The notes below the pieces were generated by a model. It searched no databases. It saw nothing but the letters and a program-made list of their open reading frames with translations, and was not told where the DNA came from. 20,994 nucleotides of DNA from a virus. Made by a program: the position numbers and the translations under genes. The DNA is taken from positions 1 to 20,994 of the IMG/VR virus record IMGVR_UViG_3300013103_000074, one strand, 5' to 3'. Positions 3,262-20,994 of the stretch are shown in pieces (position 1 is the first letter of the stretch; every line of letters starts with the position of its first letter).

Positions 3262-3737
3262 GGTTTCACCCTTTTGATTCCTTTGTTTAACTTATCCCAA
3301 TTCCTATAATCAAGATGTAGCCAATCGACATCAACCTCTATACATTTGATGTACTTAAAATCCTCATGAAAAGGATCATTCATTATATCTTTTCTAATCT
3401 CTTTCACAGAAACACCACTCACTGGGACACTATCTTGGGCTCGGCCAAATCTGTGTTGAGATATATTTCCAAAAGTTGAATTAGGGTTCTTTACATAAGG
3501 AGAATGTTCATCTCTATAACCTCTCCATTGGTGAACACCGTACATATCCATCATGCTATTACTAAACCAAGTGTTCATTATGAAAGGAGTATCATATCGT
3601 TCCCTTAATCTAACAGAAGTTATCAAAGCCCTGTAATCAATTACGGACCAAAGCAGATCGCCATAAATTGGAAACATTGCCTTGAAATACGAAGGTGGAA
3701 ACCATTCTTGCAATTTGAAGTGTTTGGGTTTGTACAT
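3258..3737 (-). CDS. Peptidase M15-like endolysin (D-Ala-D-Ala carboxypeptidase / L,D-endopeptidase type)
   Basis: The 159-residue product carries the M15 zinc-peptidase pattern. H95 and D102 lie in SQHRFGRAQD, and H141 lies in DWLHLDYRNW with E134 seven residues before it. These match the known H-x6-D ... E-x6-H arrangement in which two His and one Asp bind zinc and the Glu acts as base. Such enzymes cut peptide stems of peptidoglycan. There is no signal peptide, so release through the nearby holin is expected. The N-terminal region (FKLQEWFPP) resembles the helix found at the start of M15_3-type phage proteins. It starts TAATG on the stop of the fibre gene. A virion-associated role cannot be excluded. 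Confidence 0.8.
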   Translation of the reverse strand: MYKPKHFKLQEWFPPSYFKAMFPIYGDLLWSVIDYRALITSVRLRERYDTPFIMNTWFSNSMMDMYGVHQWRGYRDEHSPYVKNPNSTFGNISQHRFGRAQDSVPVSGVSVKEIRKDIMNDPFHEDFKYIKCIEVDVDWLHLDYRNWDKLNKGIKRVKP

Positions 3738-5011
3738 TATGAAGATTCTCCTTGTATATAAACATCCAAAGAACCTGACGAACTTTGACTCATTACCAAG
3801 TCTGTTGAAAAAGGTGGATCACTTGTATTATATCCAGCGTAGCCTGATGAAAGTCTTCCAGGTATTAATCCTTCTGTATTAGTAGAATGAGTATAGAAAA
3901 TAAGCCCGGTGGATGCAGTCACAGCAAATGGTGTGAAGTCTATTCCTGATGTCAAAGTGATCCACCCAGTTGATAAGCCGCCCACATCAATAACTTCAGT
4001 ATAGCTATCAAAAGTAAAAGTTGTCCCTGAGAATGTCCCTTTCCAAATTCTAAGCCTGCCACCTGCTGTATTGTTGTATATTTGTATTTGATGGACAGTA
4101 CCAGCAGCAGAAAACAATTCAGGAGTACTGGATCCTGAATAAGCTGTGTAAATATACCCACTTGGTGTTTGACTGTTATTGCTTCCATTACCTGATGCAT
4201 AATCCATATCTAATACGGGCGGGCTTGTCGTTGTAGTGGTGCTGAAAGTACTTGTCGATGTCGATGTGGAACTCAGCGTTGAACTACTTGATGTGGTCGA
4301 ACTAAAAGTTGATGTGGTACTGAATGTACTTGTCGAACTCATTGTACTTGAAGTTGTACTGAACGTACTTGTGGTACTGAACGTACTGGTTGAACTCATT
4401 GTACTTGATGTTGTACTAAAAGTACTGGTTGAACTCATTGTACTGGTAGAACTCGTACTGGTAGAACTCGTACTAAACGTACTTGTAGTACTAAACGTAC
4501 TTGTAGTACTTGCTGTACTTGAGGTCGTTGTGCTTGAACTGGTTGTTGTAGTAGACGAAGTGGAATAGCTCGAACTATCACGAACAGATATATGGAGATC
4601 AATGGTATCTGTATCAGTAGCATATCCAATCGGCTGATAAAACCAATTGGGTTTAGTTTGAGTAAAAGTACCTGCAACACTATCAGATAACCAAACAACT
4701 TTTCTTGGTGTCAAGGACCAACTGGCTACAGTAATAATCCCTTTCCTACGAACTCTAATTTCATCATCTAAAATACCCCCTTCAGTAGCAACACCTAAAC
4801 AAGGTTGCTGTGTCCCATCTGCTAATGCTTTATACCACTTAGAATCACTATCGATATAAAGACCATCTCCTTCAACAACAGTCTCACCAAGAGTTGCTAA
4901 CATGACAGATTGTATAATATCATCCAGGAATTCAATGTTTTCTTTCAGTTTACGGTTCCACCCTGTGGTTCCATAATCAACATGTATTAACTCGTAGATA
5001 GAAGTTGGCAT
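3737..5011 (-). CDS. Fibre or decoration protein with long Thr/Ser linker and extra C-terminal beta domain
   Basis: The 424-residue product has three parts. Residues 1-146 are clearly paralogous to the upstream 169-residue protein: both share DY-x3-GWN, LATLGE-like, YKALAD, PCLG, VWLSD and TQTKP blocks. Residues 147-263 are almost all Ser and Thr with occasional Phe and Met, in repeats such as STFSTTSTFSTTSSTMSS. Residues 264-424 form a beta-rich domain, with GRLRIWKGTFSGTTFTFDSY in the middle, that looks like a carbohydrate-binding sandwich but is not assigned. It starts two bases after the previous stop without a Shine-Dalgarno (TAATTATG), so coupled reinitiation is likely. Position after the tail tip suggests a surface fibre or adhesin. 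The first domain resembles small phage decoration proteins. Confidence 0.75.
   Translation of the reverse strand: MPTSIYELIHVDYGTTGWNRKLKENIEFLDDIIQSVMLATLGETVVEGDGLYIDSDSKWYKALADGTQQPCLGVATEGGILDDEIRVRRKGIITVASWSLTPRKVVWLSDSVAGTFTQTKPNWFYQPIGYATDTDTIDLHISVRDSSSYSTSSTTTTSSSTTTSSTASTTSTFSTTSTFSTSSTSTSSTSTMSSTSTFSTTSSTMSSTSTFSTTSTFSTTSSTMSSTSTFSTTSTFSSTTSSSSTLSSTSTSTSTFSTTTTTSPPVLDMDYASGNGSNNSQTPSGYIYTAYSGSSTPELFSAAGTVHQIQIYNNTAGGRLRIWKGTFSGTTFTFDSYTEVIDVGGLSTGWITLTSGIDFTPFAVTASTGLIFYTHSTNTEGLIPGRLSSGYAGYNTSDPPFSTDLVMSQSSSGSLDVYIQGESS
4223..4573 (-). repeat. Thr/Ser linker repeat tract inside the second fibre gene
   Basis: These bases encode residues about 147-263 of the fibre protein, nearly all Ser/Thr. 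The + strand word GAACTCATTGTACT recurs at 4335, 4392 and 4431. The spacings of 57 and 39 bases are multiples of three, so the array can lengthen or shorten in frame. Smaller units built on GTACT and GAACTCGTACTGGTA lie between. The tract also carries ACTGGTTGTTGTAGT at 4538-4552, which is repeated in two other genes. Confidence 0.85.
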
Positions 5012-5013
5012 AA

Positions 5014-5523
5014 TTATACCGTTGTGGTTGTTGTAGTAGTTGTTGTTGAACTGGTTGTTGTAGTTGATGTCGTTGTTCCATACGAAGCAATATTACCTAT
5101 TTGTATTCTTATATCTAAAGTATCTGGTCCTATAGCAATTCCTATCAATTGCTCTGTACTTGGTTTAGTTTGAGTCAAAGCCCCTCGGGTAATATCTGAT
5201 AACCAAACACCAGTTCCTGAAGTAAAAGACCACCCTGTGACTTGCATAACCCCGTCTCTTTGCATTCGGATAACTTCTCCAGAATTACCGTCTTCAATTG
5301 CAAGTCCTAAACAAGGCATCCTCCTATTGTCAGCTAAAGCTTTATAGTAAAAACCATCAGTTTGAAGGTAAAGGGCTTCTCCTTCATCTACATCCTCTCC
5401 TAAAGTGACTAATGCCCAAGTGTCTACCACTTCATCAAGAACTTCCATTGCAGATTTATATATGGCGTTCCACCCTGCTGCGGTGTAGTCAGCCGTTTCC
5501 ATATCGTATTTTGGTGTAGCCAT
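5014..5523 (-). CDS. Fibre or decoration protein with terminal Thr/Ser tail
   Basis: The 169-residue product consists of one domain (residues 1-149) and a 20-residue Thr/Ser tail. The domain has the pattern LVTLGEDVDEGEALYLQ, FYYKALADN, MPCLGLAIED, GVWLSD and ALTQTKPS. It resembles small beta-rich phage head or tail decoration modules that read 'G-x-A-L-Y ... KA-x-A-D ... G-x-A'. The next gene is a paralogue with an added C-terminal domain, so a tandem duplication is probable. It starts three bases after the stop of the hub C-half gene behind AAAGGGG. The exact place on the particle is not determined by sequence alone. Structural role likely, specific name uncertain. Confidence 0.75.
   Translation of the reverse strand: MATPKYDMETADYTAAGWNAIYKSAMEVLDEVVDTWALVTLGEDVDEGEALYLQTDGFYYKALADNRRMPCLGLAIEDGNSGEVIRMQRDGVMQVTGWSFTSGTGVWLSDITRGALTQTKPSTEQLIGIAIGPDTLDIRIQIGNIASYGTTTSTTTTSSTTTTTTTTTV
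5017..5076 (-). repeat. Thr/Ser tail tract of the first fibre gene
   Basis: Twenty codons, almost all Thr or Ser, end the gene. The + strand word ACTGGTTGTTGTAGT lies at 5050-5064, identical to words in the second fibre gene and the head closure gene. The mRNA ends ACAACGGTATAATTATG, spanning the stop and the next start. Confidence 0.8.
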
Positions 5524-5526
5524 ATT

Positions 5527-6939
5527 TTACCCCTTTGTTACAAGAATGATTCTGGAAATAGACTCATATTCAATTGAACCATCTGTTCTATAATTTGTCA
5601 CAGCAAAAGTCAGAAATGGAGACAGGCTCCCATTATCAGCCGTGTTCATGGTAGAATCATAAGTCCAAGTATAGGTTGTTAAACCACTGGTTGTTCTTAC
5701 TAAAGTTTGTGTTCCAGTTTTTGTGGTATGTGCATAAACCCGTACCCGAAAGAAACCTTCATGTGTAGGAGAAGCATCTGTAACTGAAGTTGGAATACCC
5801 ATCCCAGCCCCAATTCCACGGTATCTTGGTGCCCATGTAAGAACATTATCCCCCGTATATTTTGAATACAAATTACTATCATTTGATCTAAAATCATGGA
5901 CAGGGTAAGGTTTTCTTGCAAACCCAGTAAATGTGTAAGTCACAGGATTATCGACAAGGGCTATATCCAAAGTAGCTCCAGAAGAAATAGGCAAGAACTT
6001 ATATAAACGAGTGGCTCCTGTAGGTTCATCACCAAAAGTAATAAGTTGTCGGAAGTTGTCACCTACAAAGAAGAAAGTAGTACCTGGGGGATGGTATGTT
6101 TTCTCAGTACCAGCAAAACCTCTGTGAACTCCTTCTAATTTATAAGTTGTATCACTAACAAGGGATATTGTCTGAAAAGTTATCCATTCTGTTTCTCCCA
6201 ATATTGCCATATTGAGTGTGCCAAACAATTCAGACATAGTTATATTACCAATCACACCTTCATCACCTGACGTAAAATAAACAGTGAGACCTACCCTTTT
6301 ATCTATATCTGGGGTTACATCATAAGAGTTCAGTAACACACCAAAAGGGTTGAAAGCTGTAACCGTGTCTATTTTACTGTAAGAGGTACCACTATCTATG
6401 CTTTGATAAACCTCATACCCTACTTCTCCTCCAGTTCTCATTGCAGCGAGAGGTAGCATTTTTACATAGTCTCCACCAGCTATAAGGTACGGTGGTTCAA
6501 CAACAGTTAAGGCAGTTAAATCTCCCAGAGAATCAGTTGGTGTGTCCCATTGAGAAGTAGGTGGTGTTATCTCAGAGGTAGCTATCGTACTGGAAATATA
6601 ATCCACATCCTCAAGGGCAACTACATCAATTTCCTCAGACCCTAACTCCTTCTCGGAAATCTTGACAACCCGACAGATCATATTAGTGATGCCCCAATTG
6701 GTATAACTGAAATTGAACAAATCTCCTGCCTGCAACTTAAACAACTTTCTATTCGTTACAAATTGAAATTGTGCGAGAGGATAAGAAGCTGTCTTTAACA
6801 ACCTATCTGATTTCCAAAAAGCAGTCTCTGGTCGAGTGAACAAATTCAAATTAACACTCTTAGACGCAGTATATCCCTGGATCCTTTTGTTTGCAGGATC
6901 ATAAACAATTAAATTAGCTTCGATTAAATCTACTGGCAT
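5527..6939 (-). CDS. Tail-tip hub protein, C-terminal half (split gpJ-like megatron)
   Basis: The 470-residue product looks like the second half of a J-like tail-tip protein rather than a complete protein. Residues 8-115 carry a block typical of the middle of such proteins: VYDPANKRIQGY, SDRLLKTASYPLAQFQF, TNRKLFKLQAGDLFNFSY, VALEDVDY. Residues 262-295 carry YKLEGVHRGFAGTEK and the following HPPGT, the 'RG-x-x-GT-x ... H-x-x-G-T' motif near the C-terminal part of GTA/J-type tip proteins. The gene starts TAATG on the stop of the gene encoding the N-half, with a GGAGG seven bases upstream that overlaps the last Gly codons of that gene. I infer that the two products assemble as one hub. Tail protein identity is sure; the split is a strong inference from architecture. 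Confidence 0.8.
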   Translation of the reverse strand: MPVDLIEANLIVYDPANKRIQGYTASKSVNLNLFTRPETAFWKSDRLLKTASYPLAQFQFVTNRKLFKLQAGDLFNFSYTNWGITNMICRVVKISEKELGSEEIDVVALEDVDYISSTIATSEITPPTSQWDTPTDSLGDLTALTVVEPPYLIAGGDYVKMLPLAAMRTGGEVGYEVYQSIDSGTSYSKIDTVTAFNPFGVLLNSYDVTPDIDKRVGLTVYFTSGDEGVIGNITMSELFGTLNMAILGETEWITFQTISLVSDTTYKLEGVHRGFAGTEKTYHPPGTTFFFVGDNFRQLITFGDEPTGATRLYKFLPISSGATLDIALVDNPVTYTFTGFARKPYPVHDFRSNDSNLYSKYTGDNVLTWAPRYRGIGAGMGIPTSVTDASPTHEGFFRVRVYAHTTKTGTQTLVRTTSGLTTYTWTYDSTMNTADNGSLSPFLTFAVTNYRTDGSIEYESISRIILVTKG

Positions 6940-9920
6940 TAGGTTCCTCCACCATCATCAATATCCCACCCTTTACCTATTAAAGTGGCACGTGCTGCGG
7001 CTGCTGCTCCACCTGAGGTATATACTGAGTTGTTCATTTCAAGGGTAACACCAGATTGAACACTTTGAGGCGCCCATCCAATAAGAAGGGCATCATAATT
7101 TACAGTTGTCATGTTATTAGATTCAAAGAAGTTGTTCGCAGAGGTGACATTTGATACATCCCAACCACTTATATCTTGTTCAAAAGCGGAAGCTCCTTGG
7201 AACATACCACCAATGCTTTGCATATTCGTAGTTGTCCAACCACCTATATCTTGATTAAAAGCCTGATTCCAATAGAACATGTAGACAAAGGCTGCTATAT
7301 TTGAAACATCCCAAGTAGTTATGCTCGCATGGTTGAAGCCGCTTTGCCTAAACATACTATGTAGACTGGTCAAACTAGGATGCCAAGTCCAACCAGCTAC
7401 ACTTCCATTAAAGTCACGGGCTTCACGAAACATTTGATAGAAATTAAGACTTGACGAAACATCCCATTGATCCAAATCCTGGTTGAATGATTGGGCACCA
7501 CGGAACATCTCCTCCATACTTTCTACTTTTGAAACATCCCAACCACCAATATCTTGGTTAAATTGATTGGCTGAGTAAAACATACGATACATATTAGTAC
7601 AGCTTGAAGTAACCCAACTTGAACAATCTCCATTGAAACTACCAGCTTGTGCGAACATGGAATTCATATTAGTAACATTTGAAACATCCCAACTATTCAA
7701 ACTGTATGCACCTGGGTTTGCACCATTAAACATAGCCTGCATTAGTATAGCACTTGAGACATCCCAACTACTACAGTTCGGAGACCAAGGAGTAACAACG
7801 GATGTGTTATAAAACATAAAAGAAAAGTCTTCTACGTTTCCTGTTTCCCATCCACTTACATCTTGATCAAAACGGTAGGTCTGATAGAACATAGATGCCA
7901 TATTAGTAACACTTGAAACATCCCAACCACTTAAATCTTGATTAAAATCATAAGCTTGCATAAACATACCAGCCATATTAGTGACATTTGAAACATCCCA
8001 ACCACTTATATCCGAATCAAAAACCTCTGCTCCATAAAACATTTGAAACATAGATGTAATCCGACTGGTATCCCAATAACCAATATTAGGAACACCTGTC
8101 AAAGCATCGCAACCTAAGAACATTCCTGCAAACGAGGTTGTCTTACCAAGGTCAGGGGTATCGGTGGCAGTTATTTGTAGGTTCTCACATTTGTAAAAGG
8201 TGTAATTAAAGGAGCCTAAACTCAAACAACCCCACTGCGTGACATCATCTATCAGATTTCTATCTGGATGCTCTCCTGGGCCATAGAAACTGAATCCATC
8301 TATTATTCCTTTAATAGTTATATTGTAAGATCCTACAGCACCATAAACATGTGTAGCCGCACCATCATTATAAGCTGTGATAGTGCTTTCTGCTGTATTA
8401 TCCCCCCAATTTACAATAAAATTGTAAGTTCCCCCATCTTTCAAAGGTAAAGCAAACGTCAAATTATAAGAAAGTGTGGTAATCGAAAATTGAAAAGGAG
8501 GATACTCAATATAACCTGACACTTCATAATGCTTGGCTTTTATTTCATTATGAGTTTCAAGCCATGTGGGCCTTGTTAAGGTTGGCTCAACCAACAAATT
8601 ACCTTCGTTTATAGTAGGTAAATTTGAGGTATCTTCTGTCCCTCGCAACAACTTGAAATGAAACTTAGGATTACCACTTGCGTCTGTTTTGTAAGTCATG
8701 GTAGCATCGATATGTTGTAAAATGCTTTCTACATAACTAAAAACCTTAGTACCGCCCTCCATCAAAAACGAAACTCCCATATCTTCTATATATAAATCAT
8801 CTGCCAAAGTATTGAGAGAAGGGACATCAATAAAATCAGTGGACATTTTACCTGGAACTGTCAACATATAGTATAAAGCATGTGCTGGATTATAATCATC
8901 AAACACCTGAATATTGGTATTTGTAAATGTACTGAATGTTGGGTACTTTGCCACTATAAAACTCATTGTAGGAACACTGGTTCCACCTAAATAACAATGC
9001 TGGAAAGATGCCCAACACAAGCCCCTCATATTTGCCGTTGGTCTACCACTACCACTACCTGTGTCTACTTGGTCATCAGTACCAAAATAGAAGATCACAT
9101 CCCCCATTTGGTCCCCTTCAGTACTTGTCTCCTTAAACGATTCAACATAGGTTAACCAAATGAATAAATCCTTTTTGCCGTATTCATCATTAAATGAGCA
9201 ATTATCAGGCCATGTGTCAAAGGTAATTAAAGTGTATTCCTCAAGGGTAGGTCCATTCCAAAAGGATAAAAACTCAATGTCAGTCATGGTTGAGCGATCC
9301 ACCCCGCCCCTACACATAGCCTCTGCTGTAACAATACTACGCGGTGATATAGTATAATTCTTAAAAGCCCACCCTTTTATTCGAACTTTACCATCTTGTT
9401 CCCTCCACCCCTTCGAAGAATTGTTCTTAGAATCATATTCAAATCTTACGGTATCTATCTTTTCATTGGTTCCTGTAATACCATCCCCCATAGACAACAC
9501 AACCTTACCTGAGGGGTTGTCAGATAAGCTTTCATATCCCTGCCATACAGTTTCACCATTTCTATAAACACCAAGAATAGCATCCACGGGTCCTTTACAA
9601 ATACCTAACCACCAGGTAAGCTGGTAGGTATATTCATCATCATCCTTATCTCTGTCTTTATCTCCATACCATAATATGTTCCCACCTATTTTAGAAATAC
9701 CAAGCAAATCAGTTACTTCCATACCTTTGCTTGCTTCATTTAAAGACCAAGCAGGAGGTGCCCCAGTATCATTATCTGGGTCAAGGGGGTCAATCATAGA
9801 GCCAATGCCATACCCAATAGTGAATCCTACATAGGCTGTGTACAAATTAAAACCAGGACCGCCCATAAATCCACCAATAACAAAACCAACAACCCCGCCT
9901 AATATTGATCCACCACTCAT
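6939..9920 (-). CDS. Tail-tip hub protein, N-terminal half, fused to PKD and BspA-like repeat arm
   Basis: The 993-residue product has four regions. Residues 1-45 are Gly-rich and hydrophobic (SILGGVVGFVIGGFMGGPGF) and end in IDPLDP, as at the start of many J-like tip proteins. Residues about 65-465 are the tip body, with LLGISKIGGNILWYGDKD and, at the end, TWLETHNEIKAKHYEV. Residues about 475-545 resemble a PKD domain (NFIVNWGDNTAES, then THVYGAVGSYNITI). Residues 616-940 are about 13 BspA-like (DUF285) repeats, and 941-989 form their usual cap (YDALLIGWAP ... LIGKGWDIDDGG). J-type proteins normally continue from the tip body into the block now found in the next gene. The repeat arm is probably a receptor-binding module acquired from a bacterial surface protein. 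It overlaps the peptidase gene by ATGA. Confidence 0.85.
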   Translation of the reverse strand: MSGGSILGGVVGFVIGGFMGGPGFNLYTAYVGFTIGYGIGSMIDPLDPDNDTGAPPAWSLNEASKGMEVTDLLGISKIGGNILWYGDKDRDKDDDEYTYQLTWWLGICKGPVDAILGVYRNGETVWQGYESLSDNPSGKVVLSMGDGITGTNEKIDTVRFEYDSKNNSSKGWREQDGKVRIKGWAFKNYTISPRSIVTAEAMCRGGVDRSTMTDIEFLSFWNGPTLEEYTLITFDTWPDNCSFNDEYGKKDLFIWLTYVESFKETSTEGDQMGDVIFYFGTDDQVDTGSGSGRPTANMRGLCWASFQHCYLGGTSVPTMSFIVAKYPTFSTFTNTNIQVFDDYNPAHALYYMLTVPGKMSTDFIDVPSLNTLADDLYIEDMGVSFLMEGGTKVFSYVESILQHIDATMTYKTDASGNPKFHFKLLRGTEDTSNLPTINEGNLLVEPTLTRPTWLETHNEIKAKHYEVSGYIEYPPFQFSITTLSYNLTFALPLKDGGTYNFIVNWGDNTAESTITAYNDGAATHVYGAVGSYNITIKGIIDGFSFYGPGEHPDRNLIDDVTQWGCLSLGSFNYTFYKCENLQITATDTPDLGKTTSFAGMFLGCDALTGVPNIGYWDTSRITSMFQMFYGAEVFDSDISGWDVSNVTNMAGMFMQAYDFNQDLSGWDVSSVTNMASMFYQTYRFDQDVSGWETGNVEDFSFMFYNTSVVTPWSPNCSSWDVSSAILMQAMFNGANPGAYSLNSWDVSNVTNMNSMFAQAGSFNGDCSSWVTSSCTNMYRMFYSANQFNQDIGGWDVSKVESMEEMFRGAQSFNQDLDQWDVSSSLNFYQMFREARDFNGSVAGWTWHPSLTSLHSMFRQSGFNHASITTWDVSNIAAFVYMFYWNQAFNQDIGGWTTTNMQSIGGMFQGASAFEQDISGWDVSNVTSANNFFESNNMTTVNYDALLIGWAPQSVQSGVTLEMNNSVYTSGGAAAAARATLIGKGWDIDDGGGT
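7101..8075 (-). repeat. BspA-like (DUF285) repeat array in the tail-tip gene
   Basis: About 13 units averaging 25 residues follow the pattern W-D-V-S-N-V-T-N-M-x2-M-F-x6-F-N-Q-D-I-S-G. Examples start at residues 641, 666, 744, 794, 869 and 920. Some units are divergent (for example at 691 and 844), so the array is old enough to have drifted. At DNA level the + strand word ACATCCCAACCACTTA recurs near the unit junctions. The fold is a leucine-rich-repeat-like solenoid used by bacteria for adhesion. Confidence 0.85.
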
Positions 9921-10363
9921 GATCTATCCTTTAATCTAAAGACAAACCTTTTTCGCTTTTGCCACTTTCTATTTAACCAGGGCATATCAGTAACCCCCAT
10001 TCCATACAAAGAATGATGCACTGTTCCCTTTAGATATATTCCTGTATGTGCAATTGATTTACCAACTTTATACATTATAATATCACCATCTTTAGGGTTG
10101 TTGAAATCCCCATTCTCAACACCAAGATTTATGGTACCATCAACTAATACATCATCTTTGGTATGTAGGAAATACCAATCTGAATGGGCTGGAATCAAAA
10201 TTCTATTCCTCGCTCCACTATCTACCAACACCCCTGCCACATAATTTGAACAATCAGCTCCTCGGTGCTTAATACGGGCATTAAGCATCCAGGGGGTTCC
10301 TTGCCAACCTTTAATAGCTTGGGACAGTTTATCTATATTTTCTGGTTTATCGAAATAGAACAT
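9917..10363 (-). CDS. NlpC/P60 family tail-tip peptidase (gpK-like)
   Basis: From the ATG at 10363 the product has 148 residues. The catalytic cysteine is C38 in RGADCSNYV and the histidine is H106 in KSIAHTGIYL; H117 (TVHHSLYG) may be the third residue. PKDGDIIMY before the His is the usual NlpC/P60 strand. These enzymes cut peptidoglycan peptides during DNA entry. The place between the gpL-like and gpJ-like genes matches lambda gpK and GTA synteny. A GTG nine bases upstream (10372) is in frame, but I prefer the ATG because it forms TAATG with the previous stop and sits at proper distance from AAGGGTG. The lambda gpK JAMM domain is absent. Confidence 0.88.
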   Translation of the reverse strand: MFYFDKPENIDKLSQAIKGWQGTPWMLNARIKHRGADCSNYVAGVLVDSGARNRILIPAHSDWYFLHTKDDVLVDGTINLGVENGDFNNPKDGDIIMYKVGKSIAHTGIYLKGTVHHSLYGMGVTDMPWLNRKWQKRKRFVFRLKDRS

Positions 10364-11193
10364 TACTGCCACACCCTTACTCTTGTTGGGTTTATCTCTG
10401 GTATATACGGAAACCCCAAAAAGTTGTCTTCGTTACTAAACTTATCAGTACAGGTAGAAAGATCACCATCACAACCTGGGTACAAATATACTGTTCCAGA
10501 AGGAGATGTATTGAATTTATACCGAACACTAATTGAATCTCCAATATTACTGACAATCATTCTATAATCTACTGTGGCCCCTGAGCCCACTCTTATAAAA
10601 CCTAAAGTGAAATAACTATCAGCCTCAGTCAACGACACAAAATCAATGGTCAGTCCATCCGAGCTTACAGAACTTATCGATTTAGCTATCCCATAATCAT
10701 CTTCTAAAAGACCACAGCCTTCATCAAATAGATTATGATTGCATTGATTTTGGTATCTAAGGATACAAGCAGGTCTGTTCAGATAAACTTCAAATCCAAC
10801 TACCGTTGCTTCTGCTTTGGTCCCAGACAATGTGATGGTGCTTATTTGTCCAACGAAAATGACATCAACTTCATATGGGGTCTGATCTGAAAACAACTTC
10901 AAAACTTGAACCCAGGTTTGCTGAGTAGGACTTTGTGCTATAAACTGGGAAACAGCTGGATTTAAATAATCAGTAGTTACCACCATCTTACTTATTTCCA
11001 ATTCTGCATTATACTCAATAGGACCACGAGTTACAGTAGCTGGCTCATAAGTGTTGCCGCCATAACTAATAGCTATATCAGAACTGCAAAAGCGTTGATC
11101 AAGGGTTAGATCATCATAGAAATGGAAAAGCTCAATGGGTTTGCGTATCTTGGCTTCTTCTTTACCTGCATATTCATCTGATGGAGTTTTCAT
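10363..11193 (-). CDS. Tail-tip hub protein with four conserved cysteines (phage BR0599 / DUF2163 type, gpL-like)
   Basis: The 276-residue product matches the BR0599/DUF2163 family. It has an N-terminal half with IELFHFYDDLTLDQRFCSSD and GGNTYEPATVTRGPIEY, and a C-terminal part with CNHNLFDEGCG and YPGCDGDLSTCTDKFSN followed by NFLGFPYIPEINP. C151, C160, C241 and C248 are well placed to bind an iron-sulfur cluster, as shown for lambda gpL and reported for the gene transfer agent hub. The protein should connect the distal tail ring to the tip. It starts two bases after the previous stop, with no Shine-Dalgarno because the upstream bases encode a Thr tail. The following peptidase and tip genes confirm the order. 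Family call is firm; the cluster is inferred. Confidence 0.88.
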   Translation of the reverse strand: MKTPSDEYAGKEEAKIRKPIELFHFYDDLTLDQRFCSSDIAISYGGNTYEPATVTRGPIEYNAELEISKMVVTTDYLNPAVSQFIAQSPTQQTWVQVLKLFSDQTPYEVDVIFVGQISTITLSGTKAEATVVGFEVYLNRPACILRYQNQCNHNLFDEGCGLLEDDYGIAKSISSVSSDGLTIDFVSLTEADSYFTLGFIRVGSGATVDYRMIVSNIGDSISVRYKFNTSPSGTVYLYPGCDGDLSTCTDKFSNEDNFLGFPYIPEINPTRVRVWQ

Positions 11194-11195: not shown

Positions 11196-11834
11196 TTATG
11201 CCGTTGTCGTTGTAGTGGAAGTATATTCGTTTGGTAACTCAACAAAATACAACTTTGTAGATGCTACCTCTGGAGAAGAATACATCCATTCAATTGTTTC
11301 TAAATCTAATCTTCCCATATACAAAAAGCTGATGAACTTTACCTGAGATTTAGGTATATTCCTCCCTAAAGCACTATCAATATTAATTTTGGTTGCTGTG
11401 TACCCTGTTAATCTACGAGCAAACCATATGCTATCATTTACATAAATAAACAAGTATCTACCAGTACCTCTCCCTGGTGGATAAAAAACACTGTAATTTT
11501 CAGTTGTCAGAACATCAATGGTAGTATCTGTAGAAGCAATATCCCCATTTATCTTGAAATCAGCGATCCAACTTGGGAACCATATATTCTCAATTCTTCC
11601 TTTGAGTGAATCAAACAGGCCATTAACCACTGAAATATCTTCTTTACCAACAAAATTGTATATGAAATTTGTACTGTAGTTTGGGAAGTTAGACAAAGGT
11701 TCGGAGTAAGTGTATCCAAAAGTAGTACCAATTATATCAGTCCTGTTCCTACTTAGTTTACCTGGGGATTCTTCCCAAATAGGACCAACATGAAAAACAG
11801 GTTTGTATCTATAGTCAGTAAAAGAAAGGGTCAT
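11196..11834 (-). CDS. Distal-tail-like minor tail protein with short Thr tail
   Basis: The 212-residue product is predicted beta-rich and carries LFDSLKGRIENIWFPSWIADF at about 73-93, a pattern seen in distal tail and DUF2460-like proteins ('F-x-x-G-R-x-x-x-F-W-x-P-S-W'). It ends ASTKLYFVELPNEYTS followed by TTTTTA. The upstream gene has a comparable layout, so the two may be paralogues forming adjacent rings at the tail end. Position between the tape measure and the hub fits a distal tail role. The short Thr tail matches longer ones on other virion proteins. ATGA overlap with the previous gene. Structural role is likely; exact ring position is not known. Confidence 0.75.
   Translation of the reverse strand: MTLSFTDYRYKPVFHVGPIWEESPGKLSRNRTDIIGTTFGYTYSEPLSNFPNYSTNFIYNFVGKEDISVVNGLFDSLKGRIENIWFPSWIADFKINGDIASTDTTIDVLTTENYSVFYPPGRGTGRYLFIYVNDSIWFARRLTGYTATKINIDSALGRNIPKSQVKFISFLYMGRLDLETIEWMYSSPEVASTKLYFVELPNEYTSTTTTTA
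11199..11222 (-). repeat. Short Thr tail of the distal-tail-like gene
   Basis: Eight codons read TSTTTTTA before the stop. The mRNA end ACAACGGCATAATTATG differs at one base from the end of the first fibre gene (ACAACGGTATAATTATG), including the stop and the next start. Confidence 0.7.
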
Positions 11835-15400: not shown

Positions 15401-15933
15401 AGATCAGCGGTGGCACCAACAGCAGCAATTGATTCCTCAGCGGTCAAACCTGCTTGACCTAATAGAACCATACCTTCAGCTATTTCAGATGCCGAGAACT
15501 TAGTTCTTCTGGCAACATCTGTAATAACCTCTCCCATTGCTTGTATTTCTGCTTCAGTAGCATTGGTAATAGCTTTCAAGTTAAACAAAGCCTGGTCATA
15601 ATCAACTATAGCAGCTATGCCTTGTCGAAAAGCGTTTGTAACTGCAAATATAGCTGAGGCAGCTATACCATATGAAGCGGTAACTCGCATGGCACCATAA
15701 ATACGATTTAAGGCGCCCGACATACCACTTAATTGTTTATTCAAAGGGGTAAAAGACTTCGTAAACTTCTTGTTTACGTCTGCCATCCTATTAGCATTAG
15801 CAGAGAAGGTCTTTAGGCTTTTGTTAAGCCCTACAAGAGAGCGATTAAGAGTCTTATCCAAGTTGCGTATAACACTATTTACTTGCCCCTTAAATAAGAT
15901 TCCTAAAGTAAGGTCTTTATCACCTACGGCCAT
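12409..15933 (-). CDS. Tail tape measure protein (TP901-1 type)
   Basis: The 1174-residue product sets tail length and is ejected with DNA. Residues about 90-400 match the TP901-type core: DYDQALFNLKAITNATEAEI, then FSASEIAEGMVLLGQAGLTA, then FVGAAAAQTGLSLEETAASM and FGLRGAQAAAIL. Residues 431-515 contain hydrophobic segments that could cross the inner membrane (LTATILLTTTALRALAAAF, VFVSFVTVLSAVATGIGVVL). Residues about 525-1010 are charged and helical, probably coiled coil. The C-terminus is Gly-rich (HQGGIAGSG, APKYGGGGIAGKDEVP, IAHKGEGIF), as usual for these proteins. At about 0.15 nm per residue the length predicts a tail near 175 nm. It starts three bases after the stop of the gpT-like frame, behind GGAAGGTG. 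It lacks a Thr tail, as expected for an internal protein. Confidence 0.95.
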   Translation of the reverse strand: MAVGDKDLTLGILFKGQVNSVIRNLDKTLNRSLVGLNKSLKTFSANANRMADVNKKFTKSFTPLNKQLSGMSGALNRIYGAMRVTASYGIAASAIFAVTNAFRQGIAAIVDYDQALFNLKAITNATEAEIQAMGEVITDVARRTKFSASEIAEGMVLLGQAGLTAEESIAAVGATADLASGTLSDFRTVADLVTTTIRAFNIDASQTSRIADVMANAINRSKLNVDKLRVAFNFVGAAAAQTGLSLEETAASMMVLANAGIRASTIGTGLRQVLARLMAPSRKLRDEFKLHGIELDSVNPKYNTFAEVMENLLPAIYDTEKGVIDMSKAYTLFGLRGAQAAAILGKSFTLVGKGSWEEMHEAVYELGAASRMAQTQAEGLAFKLKNLADRAKNLAIALGEAGLITVMKGLVDILAKIITGFEILVKDPLGKAILQFGALTATILLTTTALRALAAAFTMLMINFVGMGVPKYIGLLSRTFYYLVAVVKKLWTVFVSFVTVLSAVATGIGVVLLAWYKWENRAKKSLATTRKMIVDVGRLSTEFDALIGGLDALHDKHKEGTKTNREYIHFLRRMLTTHEGLADRLDITKMSFEEVRAEVIAFDREMNKVPKWTAQMEELTDIMARVDEVRDGWLNKSWLPWLYQSEEDRIKEMKGLLSDYRTSLKLTQLEIAEFGMRHDMSAEAIKHLAFEVVQFKEITMEEKWAFAQVVVELVKVNREKARQKALDLEAIEVKQTKLEYDKLYYTLLARYETDAAKKAKAILNKELKDLDEQYDDKIKKLEKHEVLVAKLKRQKAELILAAERKYVQSISAIQFDDAMADLKREDIRAKARLSAMKATNVAWATENKHFRKLELEQDINIAEKKVSNLKARQEEMLTDEKVSTKEFLEIDTKLWEARYALSELYYDRGKLLKKQEIKDYNEQLKYQLDTTERYTEEWMALFEEAYKRGQISYAQYIDTKKLNDASWGEAFKIGLEKAAIDADNWKETMLRIGSELNDKLATGMTDALWDFIDGTKSAKEAFADFARDTVQWLAKIIIRQTILNALQGLMGGMGSGQSGMPAVMGGMWAGVDHQGGIAGSGASPVRVVNPAVFSNAPKYGGGGIAGKDEVPIIAHKGEGIFTPEQMAALGNQEINIVNITDTKLIDSYIATPRGKQSILNVIGSNPSTVKRMLR

Positions 15934-15936
15934 ATG

Positions 15937-16290
15937 TCACCTTCCAATCTCCTTTAAACCACCACCAACTTCTGATTTATGAAGGTCTTTCATCTTTTGA
16001 GTAAGTTCTTTTCGTTCCTCTTTTGACAGATGTTCATAATCACTTGGGTCACCAAACTTAGTTGGTGTGGGTGCTTCTTTTGTGGGAAGAACAGGGTCCG
16101 GTTTTGCTAACTTAGCACCATGTATGTTTGCTTGAAACCTTATTCGGAGTTCTTCCCTCTTTAGAGTGTACTCTAATAGGACAATTAACTGCCCTCTTGT
16201 AACTCCTCCTTCAATGAAGCTCTTTTGGTAGAAGTGTTCGAGTCTGTACCCTGGGTACTTTTCACAGACGATTGAGACGGCCTCCCCGAT
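15937..16290 (-). CDS. gpT-like extension of the tail assembly chaperone, reached by probable -1 frameshift
   Basis: This frame is -1 relative to the chaperone gene. It is open from 16341 to a TGA at 15937-15939 and has no useful start codon. From a shift at CTTAAAA it adds 117 residues beginning KIGEAVSIVCEKYPGYRLEH, with VTRGQLIVLLEYTLKREEL in the middle and a charged end (LSKEERKELTQKMKDL). The result is a 243-residue G-T fusion. In lambda and many siphophages the gene before the tape measure is expressed this way: a short G form and a minor GT form that binds the tape measure. The order here (tube, G/GT, tape measure) is the same. The frame is also clean through about 250 bases that would otherwise be non-coding. 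Coding status is strong; the exact slip site is less sure. Confidence 0.8.
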   Translation of the reverse strand: MGEAVSIVCEKYPGYRLEHFYQKSFIEGGVTRGQLIVLLEYTLKREELRIRFQANIHGAKLAKPDPVLPTKEAPTPTKFGDPSDYEHLSKEERKELTQKMKDLHKSEVGGGLKEIGR

Positions 16291-16667
16291 TTTAAGTCCT
16301 GAATCTTCTCGAAGAGGCCTTTCACTTTTATTGTTACAGTCTCAAAGTTTACCTCATAAATGATTTCTGCTATATCTAAAGCTTGGTCATTCGAAACTTC
16401 CGACAACTCTACATCTTCCGTTACCATCTCAAGGACATCCCCTAAGTTATTGATAATAACTTCCAATATAAAGTTGACGGTTGTTTCGTTGGAGACATCT
16501 CCTTTGCTACTTTCATAAAAGGAGATTAATCCATCTCCAATTATCTTCGACAGTTTAATTTCATCAGCTAATGATAGAGGATATACCTCTATTTCCCTCA
16601 GGGAACGTGTTCCTACTTCGAGCTTCCTAATTTGAGGGTTGAGTCGGCTTTCATCGATCTCCGGCAT
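16185..16667 (-). CDS. Tail assembly chaperone (gpG-like)
   Basis: The 160-residue product is acidic and helical, with YPLSLADEIKLSKIIGDGL and an ALDIAEIIYEVNFETVTIKV segment before residue 120. Position between the tail tube and the tape measure is diagnostic of lambda gpG-type chaperones, which coat the tape measure during tail assembly and are not in the mature virion. The last 34 or so residues are Ser/Thr/Lys-rich and overlap the start of the gpT-like frame. I chose the ATG at 16667 rather than the TTG at 16673 because GGAG is seven bases before the ATG. The protein has Ser and Thr near its end but not the pure Thr tail of the virion proteins. Confidence 0.85.
   Translation of the reverse strand: MPEIDESRLNPQIRKLEVGTRSLREIEVYPLSLADEIKLSKIIGDGLISFYESSKGDVSNETTVNFILEVIINNLGDVLEMVTEDVELSEVSNDQALDIAEIIYEVNFETVTIKVKGLFEKIQDLKSGRPSQSSVKSTQGTDSNTSTKRASLKEELQEGS
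16246..16296 (-). promoter_or_regulatory. Candidate -1 ribosomal frameshift region of the G/GT chaperone
   Basis: The mRNA reads C TTA AAA at 16296-16290 in the chaperone frame. A-site AAA re-pairs perfectly after a -1 slip, and P-site TTA would mismatch only at its first base, as tolerated in some viral sites. GGGGAGG at 16287-16281 is a weaker alternative. Downstream are the hairpin arms GTACCC (16258-16253) and GGGTAC (16251-16246), with outer arms GTCT (16269-16266) and AGAC. The spacing of about 20-30 bases is longer than usual. The exact site is not proven. Confidence 0.5.
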
Positions 16668-16678
16668 GATCAATCTCC

Positions 16679-17338
16679 TTATGACGTGGTTGTAGTAGTA
16701 GAGGTACTTGTGCTACCTGTACCATCATCCCATAGTACTCTTCCGAGCGGTTGGGCATCCCAAATAGTATGCCCATTTGTGGTTCCTCCTGCTTCATTAA
16801 TCCAGGAAGTTGCACCATCAGCCCTCTTTGACTCAAGGGTAATGGAAACAGCCGCGGGTTCCTCCGAAGCAAAGTCAAGCTCAAGACTTGCAACTACCTG
16901 GCACCTCGGAAACACAATAGTCATGGTATTTACACCATCTGGGTAAGTATAAATAGCTTCCATTCTGACAGACAACGGGGCAGCAATGGAACCCAACCCA
17001 ATATTACCTAAGTGCTCATCGGCATAACCACCTGCAGTAGGATCAAGTCCTCTTGCAAGGGCAAGGTTGTAAGGGGTTATTTCCTTGAATCCACACTCAA
17101 GGGAACATCCTTCTCTCAGTGGAAACACAGCATCCTCCAACATCGGGAAACCAGATTCCAGTTTGAAAACTTCTACGGTAGACATAAACTTGGTATCAGC
17201 CAAAGCACCAATTGATGCAGCCAAACCTAATATCGGTCGAATCTGACCAATATAAGTCTCACATGTACCAATTCGAATTTGAGCCAAACCAAGGGCTACA
17301 GTTGAACTATCTTTTGTAATAGGACCTGTTCTCGCCAT
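16679..17338 (-). CDS. Major tail tube protein with Thr/Ser tail
   Basis: The 219-residue product forms the tail tube. It begins MARTGPITKDSSTVALGLAQ and includes ASIGALADTKFMSTVEVFKLESGFP and REGCSLECGFKEITPYNLALARGLDP (residues about 41-100), the layout seen in tube proteins of long-tailed phages. A later beta-rich part (IVFPRCQVVASLELDFASEE) follows. The last 13 residues, TGSTSTSTTTTTS, form a Thr/Ser tail. It sits behind one of the strongest Shine-Dalgarno sites in the window and just before the chaperone pair, both expected for a tube gene. The C-terminus is expected on the outside of the tube by analogy with lambda gpV. Role confident, tail function unknown. Confidence 0.87.
   Translation of the reverse strand: MARTGPITKDSSTVALGLAQIRIGTCETYIGQIRPILGLAASIGALADTKFMSTVEVFKLESGFPMLEDAVFPLREGCSLECGFKEITPYNLALARGLDPTAGGYADEHLGNIGLGSIAAPLSVRMEAIYTYPDGVNTMTIVFPRCQVVASLELDFASEEPAAVSITLESKRADGATSWINEAGGTTNGHTIWDAQPLGRVLWDDGTGSTSTSTTTTTS
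16682..16720 (-). repeat. Thr/Ser tail tract of the tail tube gene
   Basis: Thirteen codons encode TGSTSTSTTTTTS. Unlike the fibre and distal-tail ends, the following gene has its own GGAG site overlapping the stop. Confidence 0.75.
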
Positions 17339-17340
17339 AG

Positions 17341-17354
17341 TATCACCTCCTTTA
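17341..17354 (-). promoter_or_regulatory. Extended Shine-Dalgarno of the tail tube gene
   Basis: The mRNA reads TAAAGGAGGTGATA, with AGGAGG eight bases before the ATG at 17338. AAAGGAGGTGAT matches the complement of the 16S rRNA 3' end over 12 consecutive bases. This fits the high copy number needed for a tube protein. Confidence 0.8.
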
Positions 17355-17642
17355 TTAAGTTACTGTTGACGCCGGGGTTTTCTGTCGATTGGATTTAGGA
17401 AAGTAATTGAACACTTGCCAGTGGCCACATTCTATCCTAAAACAGCGGATCTTCAAAGATCCATGAATATATATAAACACAGAATTCCAGTCCTGTGTTG
17501 TATTCGTATTTGGGTTTCTCTTTCTACCACGCCCATATTTGAACTTCCATAAACCATTCTGAAGTCTTTCAACCAGGGGCTGTCCGCACTTTTCACATTT
17601 GTACAGAACACCACGTGGTTCCTTTTTTGCATCATTCAACAT
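17355..17642 (-). CDS. Small zinc-ribbon protein (Com-like pattern)
   Basis: The 95-residue basic product has C16 and C19 in YKCEKCGQPL, then C67 and C72 in IRCFRIECGHW. This is a two-knuckle zinc ribbon resembling the small phage zinc proteins related to Mu Com, a translational activator that binds mRNA. The stretch between is basic (FKYGRGRKRN). It starts TAATG on the stop of the tail terminator and ends just before the tail tube Shine-Dalgarno. Its place inside the tail gene block is unusual for a regulator, so a structural or RNA-binding role is open. Zinc-site visible; function inferred. Confidence 0.65.
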   Translation of the reverse strand: MLNDAKKEPRGVLYKCEKCGQPLVERLQNGLWKFKYGRGRKRNPNTNTTQDWNSVFIYIHGSLKIRCFRIECGHWQVFNYFPKSNRQKTPASTVT

Positions 17643-18112
17643 TATATTATGCTCGCAAACCTTGATATGATAGTTAATATTTTGTATTTGGTTTCATCTT
17701 CAGCTAAAAACTGGGCACTTTCAATAATCTCCTGTACAACAATCCCACCTATCTTCTCCCAGGGAAGAGTTGAATGACTACGGTAAAAGGGAACTCTCAT
17801 AATACCATCTCCTGTATTATTTGATAAGTACCCCATCACAAGATCACCTAATTGAGCAATACGAAAACCCTCATTGTCCTGTCTCGTACAGCAGTATATC
17901 TCTACAAAACCCGTAGATAAGTGTCCCCTGCTTAACTCTCCAAAACGAACATTCACCCATCTTGTTGTCTCTTTATGCCCTGTTAAGTAAGGAGTAGCCA
18001 TTGTTCGATCAAAGGTAACTTGTACACCTGAAATGGTATATATGTTATCTACTAAGAACTTCTTCCAACTATCACGAAAGTTGGACTCCCGGGCTGTCGG
18101 GTCCAAGGTCAT
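17642..18112 (-). CDS. Tail terminator protein (gpU-like)
   Basis: The 156-residue product has TTRWVNVRFGELSRGHLSTG followed by VEIYCCTRQDNEGF at about 49-83, then RIAQLGDLVMGYL. This 'R-W-V-x-V-x-F-G ... V-x-I-x-C-x-T-R-x-D' layout is typical of siphophage tail terminators, which cap the tail tube and join it to the head. It starts behind GAGGAGGTC, a strong site, and overlaps the end of the small unknown gene by 41 bases. The overlap is probably real because the ribosome site is so strong. Position between gp10-like and tube genes agrees. Confidence 0.8.
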   Translation of the reverse strand: MTLDPTARESNFRDSWKKFLVDNIYTISGVQVTFDRTMATPYLTGHKETTRWVNVRFGELSRGHLSTGFVEIYCCTRQDNEGFRIAQLGDLVMGYLSNNTGDGIMRVPFYRSHSTLPWEKIGGIVVQEIIESAQFLAEDETKYKILTIISRFASII

Positions 18113-18314
18113 TTTTGACCTCCTCAGTTAATTTATCTAAAATCGGAAAGAACTCATCTTGGACAAACAATAAGGTCTTTTTGAATTCGGGTTCTTCTGC
18201 ACCATCAAATGTTACCTTTGCTCTTGATAAGAAATCAAGCAGCATGTTTATTTCCGTTAATGATACTTCAAAAGTGACATGGATATCTTTTGCCTGGACA
18301 TCTAAAATCTTCAT
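18072..18314 (-). CDS. Small acidic phage protein of unknown function
   Basis: The 80-residue product begins MKILDVQAKDIHVTFEVSLT and continues as an acidic, mainly helical protein with LLDFLSRAKVTFDGAEEPE. I do not recognise it. Two starts are close: an ATG at 18320 and one at 18314. I choose 18314 because it forms ATGA with the previous stop and has a better spacing from AGAGGT. It lies between the HK97 gp10-like gene and the tail terminator, where siphophages often carry a short gene of no known role. It overlaps the terminator gene by 41 bases. Confidence 0.6.
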   Translation of the reverse strand: MKILDVQAKDIHVTFEVSLTEINMLLDFLSRAKVTFDGAEEPEFKKTLLFVQDEFFPILDKLTEEVKNDLGPDSPGVQLS

Positions 18315-18859
18315 CGCCATTTACCTCTTATCCTTAATAGAGAGCGCATACCTTGTTTTGGAAGATATGCTTTCTTGTACTGCAAAGCAGTTGGTCTGAA
18401 CAATGGTCTGGCAGGTACTTTGCTATTACCATATTCATTGACACGGGCATATAAAGCTATTTGAGTAGGAGCACCCGAACCTGACCAATTTTTACCACCT
18501 GAGTCATAAATACCACCGGGAACTCCCGCCATCCAAGAAACCCCACCTTTTCTCCCACTGGGGTCCATGCTTGTAAGAGCGGCTGACTTTCTAAAGAATC
18601 TGATATTATTAGCAAGGTCTCCTCTTAATCTCCAATATATCAAAGGGTAGCCCATCTTAATTTTCCATTTACGATAGGCCTTACTATAAGATTGATATAG
18701 AAAAGACTGCTTGTTTATATTTCCAATAAGAAGGTTCCGTGCTTCAATGGCACAACTGCGGGGAAGGTTATTTTGCTGGCGGAATATCTCTTTTACGGTA
18801 CGAGATATTGCCATCCTAACCTTTCTGAGGTCACTACCATCAATTACAGCATAAATCAT
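18311..18859 (-). CDS. HK97 gp10-like head-tail joining / tail completion protein
   Basis: The 182-residue basic product ends with the family motif VNEYGNSKVPARPLFRPT at about 139-156, then a helix. HK97 gp10-like proteins share 'E-[FY]-G-x3-x-P-A-R-P-F' near the C-terminus. The protein has a Gly/Ser-rich stretch before it (YDSGGKNWSGSGAP). Place between head closure and tail terminator is as in HK97. It starts ATGA on the stop of the head closure gene with no Shine-Dalgarno, because the bases before it encode a Thr tail. Coupled translation is likely. Confidence 0.82.
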   Translation of the reverse strand: MIYAVIDGSDLRKVRMAISRTVKEIFRQQNNLPRSCAIEARNLLIGNINKQSFLYQSYSKAYRKWKIKMGYPLIYWRLRGDLANNIRFFRKSAALTSMDPSGRKGGVSWMAGVPGGIYDSGGKNWSGSGAPTQIALYARVNEYGNSKVPARPLFRPTALQYKKAYLPKQGMRSLLRIRGKWR

Positions 18860-19611
18860 ATCGTTGTAGTTGTAGTGGTAGTTGATGAACTTGTGGAGGT
18901 CGAGTTGGTTGAACTGGTTGAAGCCGTTGTACTACTGGTTGTCGTTGTACTGGTTGTTGTAGTAGTACTGGTTGTTGTAGTAGTAGAGAATGAAGCCCTG
19001 TTATCTTCTCCTAACTCAAGGACATCCATTCCATCATAACGTCTAGGTTTGACAGTTTCTACACGATAATAAACAGATTCAGAAAGGACGATTCTATCAA
19101 GGGGCTGTACTCCCCAAGAAGTGGGAACATACATCTCATGCATTTCCAAGCCCAATAAAGCTAATTCCTCATCTGTTTCAAGAGAGTGCCCATATAAAGG
19201 TGCTGTTATTAATGCTCTGGCACTTTCTTTGATATAACTCCACGTGGTAGCCCTATGATAATTTTGAGGATCATAATTAGGGTTCGTAGGCCGCCTAATA
19301 TCACAAACTACATTGGTTTTATAAAGAACAGCTTGGTATCTCCATATTTCATTCTCAAGCATATCCGGAGACTTATTCATCACAAAATGATAAGATCCGG
19401 GAACTACTAATAAAATGGTATCACCAACAACTGCTACAGAATCATAAGATAACCAACATTCAGTAAAAAACTCACGGATAAAAGGCTTTGTAACCTGAGC
19501 GTTACTGGCATACAAGGTGTTCTCTCCAGTAACGTTTCCTGCATCTCGTATTATCGTATAGGCCTGCCCTACTTCGGCAAGAACTTCTTTTATATCAAGA
19601 CCTATTGACAT
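18856..19611 (-). CDS. Head closure / neck protein with long Thr/Ser tail
   Basis: The 251-residue product has a body of about 208 residues ending with PLDRIVLSESVYYRVETVKP and YDGMDVLELGE. The pattern 'D-R-I ... Y-Y-R-V' with a basic turn is typical of head closure proteins. The last 43 residues are almost all Thr and Ser with no matching domain, starting SFSTTTTTSTTTTT. It lies between connector and gp10-like genes, the neck position of siphophages. The tail is the longest terminal tail of the window and may cover the neck surface. Structural call fair; closure identity inferred from position and motif. Confidence 0.72.
   Translation of the reverse strand: MSIGLDIKEVLAEVGQAYTIIRDAGNVTGENTLYASNAQVTKPFIREFFTECWLSYDSVAVVGDTILLVVPGSYHFVMNKSPDMLENEIWRYQAVLYKTNVVCDIRRPTNPNYDPQNYHRATTWSYIKESARALITAPLYGHSLETDEELALLGLEMHEMYVPTSWGVQPLDRIVLSESVYYRVETVKPRRYDGMDVLELGEDNRASFSTTTTTSTTTTTSTTTTSSTTASTSSTNSTSTSSSTTTTTTTI
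18859..18987 (-). repeat. Thr/Ser tail tract of the head closure gene
   Basis: The + strand carries ACTGGTTGTTGTAGTAGT twice in tandem at 18949-18966 and 18967-18984. The 15-base core ACTGGTTGTTGTAGT is also at 5050-5064 and 4538-4552 in the two fibre genes. A looser unit precedes the tandem pair. Confidence 0.85.
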
Positions 19612-20066
19612 TATGTATTCTCATTTGGTCCGAAATCAACCTTGTTTGCCTCCAGGTAAGTCTCATCCCTACCCGTTAATGAACCATACGAAAAGCCCGC
19701 ATCGACTTTGGTTCCGAATAAATGGAAAGAATCTACACCAGCAAACATATCAGGTCTTGCATCTTGAATATCTACAAAAGCCTGATCCATTTGCTCTAAA
19801 ACTGAACCATAGTGCTTAAATTTGTGCTCCAAGTGTATTTGCTCAACTTGGAACTTGGCAGCACTTTCTGTCCAAAGATAATATATCAACCAGCGTTTAG
19901 ATCGATTCAAATACCATTGAATCTGAAAAGAATCGGTAACAGGTAAAGCCCATCCCGTATCTCTTGAAGCGGCAGCTTGGGCATTCTTGTAATCAGCACT
20001 CACAAGATAAGATGTCAGTCCTTTTACTTCCTGCTTCAAGAGAGCCGTACAAGCTGATGTATTCAT
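19611..20066 (-). CDS. Head-tail connector-like protein
   Basis: The 151-residue product is helical, with a central region YLNRSKRWLIYYLWTESAAK and KFKHYGSVLEQMDQAFVD (about 52-100). Its size, helical content and place after the capsid gene fit the connector proteins that line the portal opening (HK97 gp6 or SPP1 gp15 type). The C-terminal part (SLTGRDETYLEANKVDFG) is less regular. It starts ATGA on the stop of the previous small gene. No Thr tail. Family is not confirmed by a signature motif. Confidence 0.65.
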   Translation of the reverse strand: MNTSACTALLKQEVKGLTSYLVSADYKNAQAAASRDTGWALPVTDSFQIQWYLNRSKRWLIYYLWTESAAKFQVEQIHLEHKFKHYGSVLEQMDQAFVDIQDARPDMFAGVDSFHLFGTKVDAGFSYGSLTGRDETYLEANKVDFGPNENT

Positions 20067-20353
20067 AACTTCCGCCTCCTCAAAACTACTGGCTGTGATT
20101 TAATTTCAACATTGCTATTGGTAATGATGTTGCTAACTTTAGTGGGGTTCGAATTATCAACAACTATTTTGGGAATATCCCCTATCGAAATACCTTCACT
20201 TCTTTCTATGACTTCGACGGTACCTCTATTGAGGCGAACTTCTTCAAGAATATCGGAAGGGAAGGGACCATCCTTACGATCAAGAATAGTCCCCTCCTCC
20301 CATATATTCTTACCTGCTTTCAAAGTCTTCTTTATTTCTATTTTCTCAATCAT
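20063..20353 (-). CDS. Small head-region protein, unknown
   Basis: The 96-residue product begins MIEKIEIKKTLKAGKNIWEE and has a GTILDRKDGPFPSDILEEVR stretch at about 21-40, then a C-terminal Lys/Arg-rich end. Short proteins of this type often follow the capsid gene in siphophages. I do not assign a function. It starts 33 bases after the capsid stop behind GGGAG. The small gap between them holds no recognisable terminator. Confidence 0.6.
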   Translation of the reverse strand: MIEKIEIKKTLKAGKNIWEEGTILDRKDGPFPSDILEEVRLNRGTVEVIERSEGISIGDIPKIVVDNSNPTKVSNIITNSNVEIKSQPVVLRRRKL

Positions 20354-20386
20354 GGATTTTCACTCCCATTATTGACACAACCGCTA

Positions 20387-20994
20387 TTAAGCAGTAGTTG
20401 TGGTAGTAGTCGAAGACGAAGTTGTGGTTGTGGACGTTGCGGATGCTGCTGCTGTAGTAGCAACCTCGATAGAATAAATAGCATCACGATGATACAGAAT
20501 GGGCAGGCCCTTATCCCGTACTCGGATAAAGATACCTTCCGGGTCCCATTCTTCATGCTTGTCTGTTTGCAGACCATACTGACGGCCTAAACCAAACGGA
20601 GCTTGTTTGTACTCTGCGATTGCTTCACCGTCTATAGAAGTAGACATGAAAACAATCTTGTTATCCGGCACAAAGTATTTCCGCATGGCAACAGAATCGA
20701 GACCAGCTTTGTATGAATTGTCCGTCGGGTATTCAATCTGTAACTGGTTGGTAAATGTATCAACCGAGAGAATAACACGATCCTCATAGGCACCTGTGGT
20801 ATTGTTATGAATGCGAACAGTCTCAAAAGCTGTGAAATCAGAAGCATCCTGAACAGAAACCCAGGTACTCGAACCACCGGAAAGAGTACTGGTTATCCAG
20901 CTTTTAATTTCATACATCTCATCATAAACAGCTATATTGGGAATGTCGAGCAAACGAGCAATAACATTGGCATTGGCTTCAACGAAATCATTTC
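20387..20994 (-). CDS. Major capsid protein, C-terminal part (phage capsid E-type), with Thr/Ser tail; 5' end outside window
   Basis: The frame is open to the window edge, so the TTG at 20953 is not the start: upstream codons read NDFVEANANVIARLLDIPN in frame. The visible 201 residues match the C-terminal part of lambda gpE-type capsid proteins: N-x-I-A-R-L-L-D-I-P, VYDEMYEIKSWI, then YFVPDNKIVFMSTS, then WDPEGIFIRVRDKGLPILYH with a D-A-I-Y-S-I-E-V ending. Lambda-type capsids share 'V-P ... D-P ... L-P-x-L'. The last 24 residues are a Thr/Ser/Ala tail. Capsids are present in hundreds of copies, so the tail would dominate the head surface if exposed. Fold family fairly confident. Confidence 0.82.
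   Translation of the reverse strand, partial: NDFVEANANVIARLLDIPNIAVYDEMYEIKSWITSTLSGGSSTWVSVQDASDFTAFETVRIHNNTTGAYEDRVILSVDTFTNQLQIEYPTDNSYKAGLDSVAMRKYFVPDNKIVFMSTSIDGEAIAEYKQAPFGLGRQYGLQTDKHEEWDPEGIFIRVRDKGLPILYHRDAIYSIEVATTAAASATSTTTTSSSTTTTTTA
20390..20461 (-). repeat. Thr/Ser tail tract of the major capsid gene
   Basis: About 24 codons at the 3' end encode mostly Thr, Ser and Ala. The sequence is more mixed in codons than the other tails and lacks the ACTGGTTGTTGTAGT word, so it may have evolved apart or drifted. Confidence 0.75.

Follow-up and report, generated by a model that had tools for sequence, protein, structure and literature searches.

The threonine/serine (Thr/Ser) tracts of six proteins encoded in the window (the whole stretch of viral DNA analysed, 20,994 bases) are probably O-glycan acceptor tails, which would clothe the virion throughout in a mucin-like glycan coat. 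An earlier, sequence-only reading of this DNA had listed glycosylation among the possible uses of these tracts, and it is now the best-supported of them because a glycosyltransferase is present in tagged relatives of this phage and absent from untagged ones. Phage-encoded O-glycosylation is the reading that, as far as sequence analysis goes, best accounts for the composition of the tracts, their near restriction to virion proteins, their occurrence on unrelated folds and the presence of a partner enzyme. The glycosylation reaction, the identity of the sugar and its use, which may be shielding, adhesion or stability, we infer.

The genes of the window lie on the minus strand; they begin with the capsid gene, truncated at 20992, and continue down to the lysis genes. 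The six whose products carry Thr/Ser tracts are:

20387..20992, minus strand: major capsid protein (Phage_cap_E), truncated by the window edge; tag at 20393-20437, TSTTTTSSSTTTTTT followed by A
18856..19611, minus strand: head-closure-like protein; C-terminal Thr/Ser tract of 42 residues at 18862-18987
16679..17338, minus strand: tail tube protein; C-terminal tag STSTSTTTTTS at 16682-16714
11196..11834, minus strand: tail-tip protein (phrog_1082); TSTTTTT at 11202-11222, followed by A (TSTTTTTA, 11199-11222)
5014..5523, minus strand: 'fibre 1', cement/decoration-like; C-terminal tag of 19 residues at 5020-5076
3737..5011, minus strand: 'fibre 2'; internal Thr/Ser linker of 118 residues at 4223-4576

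All six tracts that the earlier reading had assigned to virion proteins are present and the other proteins lack them, as it had stated for several by name, the remaining 22 open reading frames having no Thr/Ser-only run of more than 3 residues. Five of the six tracts stop at most one residue from the C-terminus, and runs of 7 or more residues were observed in 6 proteins compared with 0.42 in shuffled proteins (maximum 3, 1000 trials). The protein names fared unevenly. That of the capsid protein was borne out, even though the window edge truncates its gene (PF03864, E 7.8e-33, and phrog_29, by profile match of a full copy in locus L002), while 'fibre 1' lies closer to cement/decoration-type families (phrog_673, and PF09956 below its cut-off) and the head-closure-like protein, which gave no profile match, takes its name from gene order alone. 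The structural model of the tail tube is of low confidence (pLDDT 59, good for fold recognition only) and its top structural matches are phage tail tubes. The tail-tip protein matches phrog_1082 with E 2.3e-28; its 7-residue tail is the weakest of the six tracts, and tagged homologues of it were found in L004, L103, L289 and others, as were tagged homologues of 'fibre 1' in other phages.

A scan with the window tail tube yielded 33 relatives. Within the window's own clade every capsid, head-closure and tail-tube orthologue that reaches its C-terminus is tagged, with the exception of L022, a short record whose tube is 52% identical and untagged. None of the capsid, head-closure and tube orthologues of a sister clade (tubes 44-53% identical, capsids 37-39%) is tagged, and a second scan, started from this untagged side, added 25 more loci, again with no tag. 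The tube alignment has a sharp boundary between core and tag: the core closes with PLGxI and W or F, and in the tagged proteins Thr/Ser is simply appended.

The larger tagged records have in common a glycosyltransferase, 57-64% identical between phages, and a smaller tagged record (G016) breaks off within a 96% identical fragment of it. The enzyme was assigned to family GT4 (PF00534 in 18 of 25 members) and the two glutamates of its EX7E motif (E300, E308) are invariant among the members. Its predicted structure (pLDDT 88.6) has a GT-B fold, with MshA and BshA as the best matches and with TarM and SdgB also matched; a PDB sequence search with the alignment gave no match. Further glycosyltransferases and methyltransferases follow downstream of the GT4 gene, together with a sulfotransferase in G013, whose GT4 gene occupies G013:14511-15719. 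We propose that the phage GT4, or an equivalent enzyme, would attach the first sugar to Thr or Ser of the flexible tails during infection and that the neighbouring glycosyltransferases, methyltransferases and sulfotransferase would lengthen and modify the sugar chain; since capsid, neck, tube, tip and fibre all have such tails, the assembled virion would then bear the mucin-like coat.

Tags and enzyme occur together. Among records of at least 50 kb found through their tube proteins, in both of the tube families studied, GT4 was present in 14 of 14 tagged and 0 of 5 untagged records (Fisher 8.6e-5, an optimistic value, as are the other p-values, since related records are not independent; two of the 14 matches are distant, with E about 1e-47 to 1e-49). 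Conversely, 20 of the 22 records of at least 20 kb found through the enzyme contain tracts, the two others (G051 and G057) having no recognised capsid or tube gene in their known part. Tracts lay within 10 kb of 53 out of 76 GT4 loci compared with 1 out of 80 viral loci drawn with an arbitrary 14-mer, and at those arbitrary loci the background rate was one gene with a tract in 899. A search with a Thr-tail DNA pattern likewise turned up relatives of the enzyme in several siphophage records. Many tagged fragments below 50 kb lack the gene, as is expected of fragments, and it is absent from one tagged record of 49.5 kb.

The second tube family (phrog_807) was collected with an alignment, a single-sequence scan having given only five near relatives, and 74 of its 80 members have a Thr tail (not an unbiased rate, since the seed sequences were themselves tagged). 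The six other tubes (L299, L316, L318, L330, L331 and L362) have Ser/Glu-rich tails instead, and no GT4 was found in the longer records among them. These six tubes, together with tagged phages that do not have this enzyme, would fit the idea that the tails, without modification, form a flexible hydrophilic brush, or a spacer, which separates particles or binds surfaces, the glycosyltransferase cluster being an independent trait that these phages also have. The composition of the tails by itself is compatible with this, but a brush has no need for such exclusive use of Thr and Ser, and it would leave the tight co-occurrence of tags and enzyme over unrelated virion modules to coincide, so we consider it unlikely, although it is the alternative that survives best.

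In the other GT4-bearing phages, the proteins with tails include head decoration, a head-tail adaptor and both major and minor tail proteins, and all 10 that were tested have matches in virion families. Across 13 GT4-bearing records of at least 45 kb, 58 of 1247 genes are tagged. The claim that the tag follows virion proteins, and the suggestion that related genomes be searched for tails limited to such genes, held up nearly throughout, in this phage and in its relatives. The one clear tagged non-virion case is a gene of the glycan cluster of G055 (G055:42369-43268; L098:15948-16847), methyltransferase-like by its resemblance to a gene of the G013 cluster, with a Thr/Ser tract near its C-terminus.

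A less probable alternative again is that the cluster acts on the host surface or on phage DNA, in superinfection exclusion or anti-restriction, and that its link to the tags reflects shared hosts or habitats. Among the known targets of phage glycosyltransferases are phage DNA and sugars of the host surface (PMC12619734), and one prophage (G468) has a related enzyme (47% identity) and no tag. Against this, the GT4 gene is often the immediate downstream neighbour of a tagged fibre or tip gene, nearly all of the longer GT4 records are tagged, as given above, and a role at the host surface does not account for capsid, tube and connector having tails that match. Another prophage, G340, might have been taken as a second case of the enzyme without a tag, but was dismissed as a counter-example because TTTTEEE tails, which a score for Thr/Ser alone misses, end two of its late-gene proteins, one of them decoration-like. 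This prophage (L561-L563; G340:C2, about 353000-380000) sits on a 390-kb bacterial contig. Some uncultured phages that look crAss-like by eye (L177, L197, L199, L200, L201, L238 and similar) have, in several proteins, Thr linkers broken by Pro (TTTTTTTxPPTTTTTTT) and no relative of the GT4.

A search of 84,980 prokaryote genomes gave one match to the enzyme, L289, on a phage-like contig that is part of a metagenome-assembled genome of the Deltaproteobacteria and may be mis-binned there. The order of the tail-tip genes in L289 is like that of the window, and a tagged homologue of 'fibre 1' lies immediately before the GT4 gene. The enzyme is found in 3 of 395 genomes of the phylum of L289 (its own included), two of these on contigs of about 400 kb. 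In the enzyme tree, the GT4s of phages with the window type of tube cluster, together with neighbours whose tube type is unknown, and those of phages with the second tube type are scattered, which fits horizontal spread. On our preferred account, phage-encoded O-glycosylation, this would extend to a portable coating: a single GT4 family may recognise a transferable poly-Thr/Ser tail, any protein that gained the tail would be glycosylated, and enzyme and tails would have spread among phages with unrelated capsids and tubes, the whole particle becoming mucin-coated; we would give this extension an even chance of being right.

The window's own phage fits the check on the rest of its genome, also suggested in the earlier reading, only in part: the glycosyltransferase was found in its tagged relatives, but not in the 35.8 kb fragment (G002) known of this phage, and a GT2 search of the window gave no match. 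For this phage we assume that the enzyme would be encoded in the remaining part of the genome or by the host. The missing gene, with the tagged phages without this GT4 already mentioned, could also mean that the tails are glycosylated by enzymes of the host instead of the phage and that the phage enzyme merely extends the glycan; this we consider very unlikely given that in both tube families the long tagged records consistently contain the GT4 gene. G002 breaks off within a protein of over 900 residues, made up almost entirely of Thr and Ser (L034; G002:1-2880, minus strand), and giant Thr/Ser proteins akin to it are found in G006, G035, G036, G039 and G056.

Codon use for Thr and Ser is near-even in the capsid tails, as it is in the capsid core, with all six Ser codons present, and this mixed use points to selection on the peptide. 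That the tracts are functionless expansions of DNA repeats is accordingly barely credible, and is refuted for the C-terminal tags: the 'fibre 2' linker does consist in part of repeated DNA units, but the codons of the tags are as mixed as those of the capsid core and capsid tails are retained among proteins only about 55% identical. Chance or a microsatellite origin of the tags was ruled out by the shuffles, the arbitrary-locus control and codon entropy.

The earlier reading had also supposed that the tag follows exposure on the particle surface, and support for this was obtained for the tube. In a cultured Klebsiella phage of the second tube family, PIN1, the tube core stops where the tag begins in the tagged proteins and about 105 residues follow, the protein being annotated with a C-terminal Ig-like domain. 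In YSD1 and T5 the C-terminal domain of the tube protein protrudes from the tube and has been proposed to contact carbohydrate (PMC8718954). The Ig-like extension of PIN1 at the tag position, together with this protruding site, supports exposure of the tube tail, and the tails of the other tagged proteins may well be exposed too. The tubes of YSD1, T5 and lambda thus have a C-terminal Ig-like add-on past the tube core in the place that the tag occupies, but theirs is a folded domain of the tube, whereas the tag is an unfolded Thr/Ser tail that recurs on other virion proteins.

The statement that no described system resembles this one did not stand. According to three papers (PMC12619734, PMC11600133, PMC12363180), the capsid and tail-tube proteins of the mycobacteriophages Che8, Corndog and Myrna bear C-terminal glycans (Freeman et al. 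2023, as cited there), and these glycans are made by phage-encoded glycosyltransferases with neighbouring methyltransferases. The phages studied here share candidate acceptor Thr/Ser residues at capsid and tube C-termini, throughout the window clade; a phage glycosyltransferase beside methyltransferases is present in tagged relatives and absent from the 35.8 kb fragment of the window's phage. Unlike theirs, the C-termini of the Che8 capsid and tube proteins have no poly-Thr/Ser tail, and the GT4 has no detectable sequence similarity to mycobacteriophage glycosyltransferases (two members gave no match by tblastn at 1e-5 in 50,697 phage records, Che8 included). Neck, tip, decoration and fibre proteins are tagged here as well, unlike in the mycobacteriophage case described there. 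Since C-terminal virion glycans are on record there, Che8 lacks the tails and the enzyme is unmatched in the phage collection, we regard the kind of system as already known and the variant, a different glycosyltransferase with portable poly-Thr tags, as new.

Ser/Thr-rich low-complexity polypeptides are also O-glycosylated in bacteria, in serine-rich repeat and SD-repeat adhesins, by GtfA/GtfB and SdgB (PMC6973325); the substrates of those enzymes are adhesins of the bacterial cell surface, whereas the candidates in the tagged phages are virion proteins. SdgB is among the structural matches of the phage enzyme with Z 13.8, compared with 16.3 for MshA, the best match, and this does not indicate a specific kinship. 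A literature search for mucin-like or threonine-rich phage proteins returned nothing specific.

The tagged phage is known only from environmental DNA, as are many relatives that are likewise tagged on unrelated surface proteins, and virion glycosylation has so far been demonstrated for a few mycobacteriophages. Should the proposal be correct, virion glycosylation could be read directly from sequence in large uncultured phage groups, and a candidate enzyme and a short, portable acceptor peptide would come with it. This would give testable handles on how phages shield their particles or make them stick, and might also provide a genetic tag by which sugars could be attached to protein nanoparticles.

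Two further features of the window were noted in passing. Overlapping open reading frames between tail tube and tape measure (16185-16673 and 15936-16223) resemble the usual pair of tail assembly chaperones made via a programmed frameshift. The C-terminal half of a tip protein (6939-9920) appears by eye to consist of repeats of the SxWDVSNVTNMxxMF type, comparable to those of BspA-like surface proteins, preceded by an apparent PKD-like domain.
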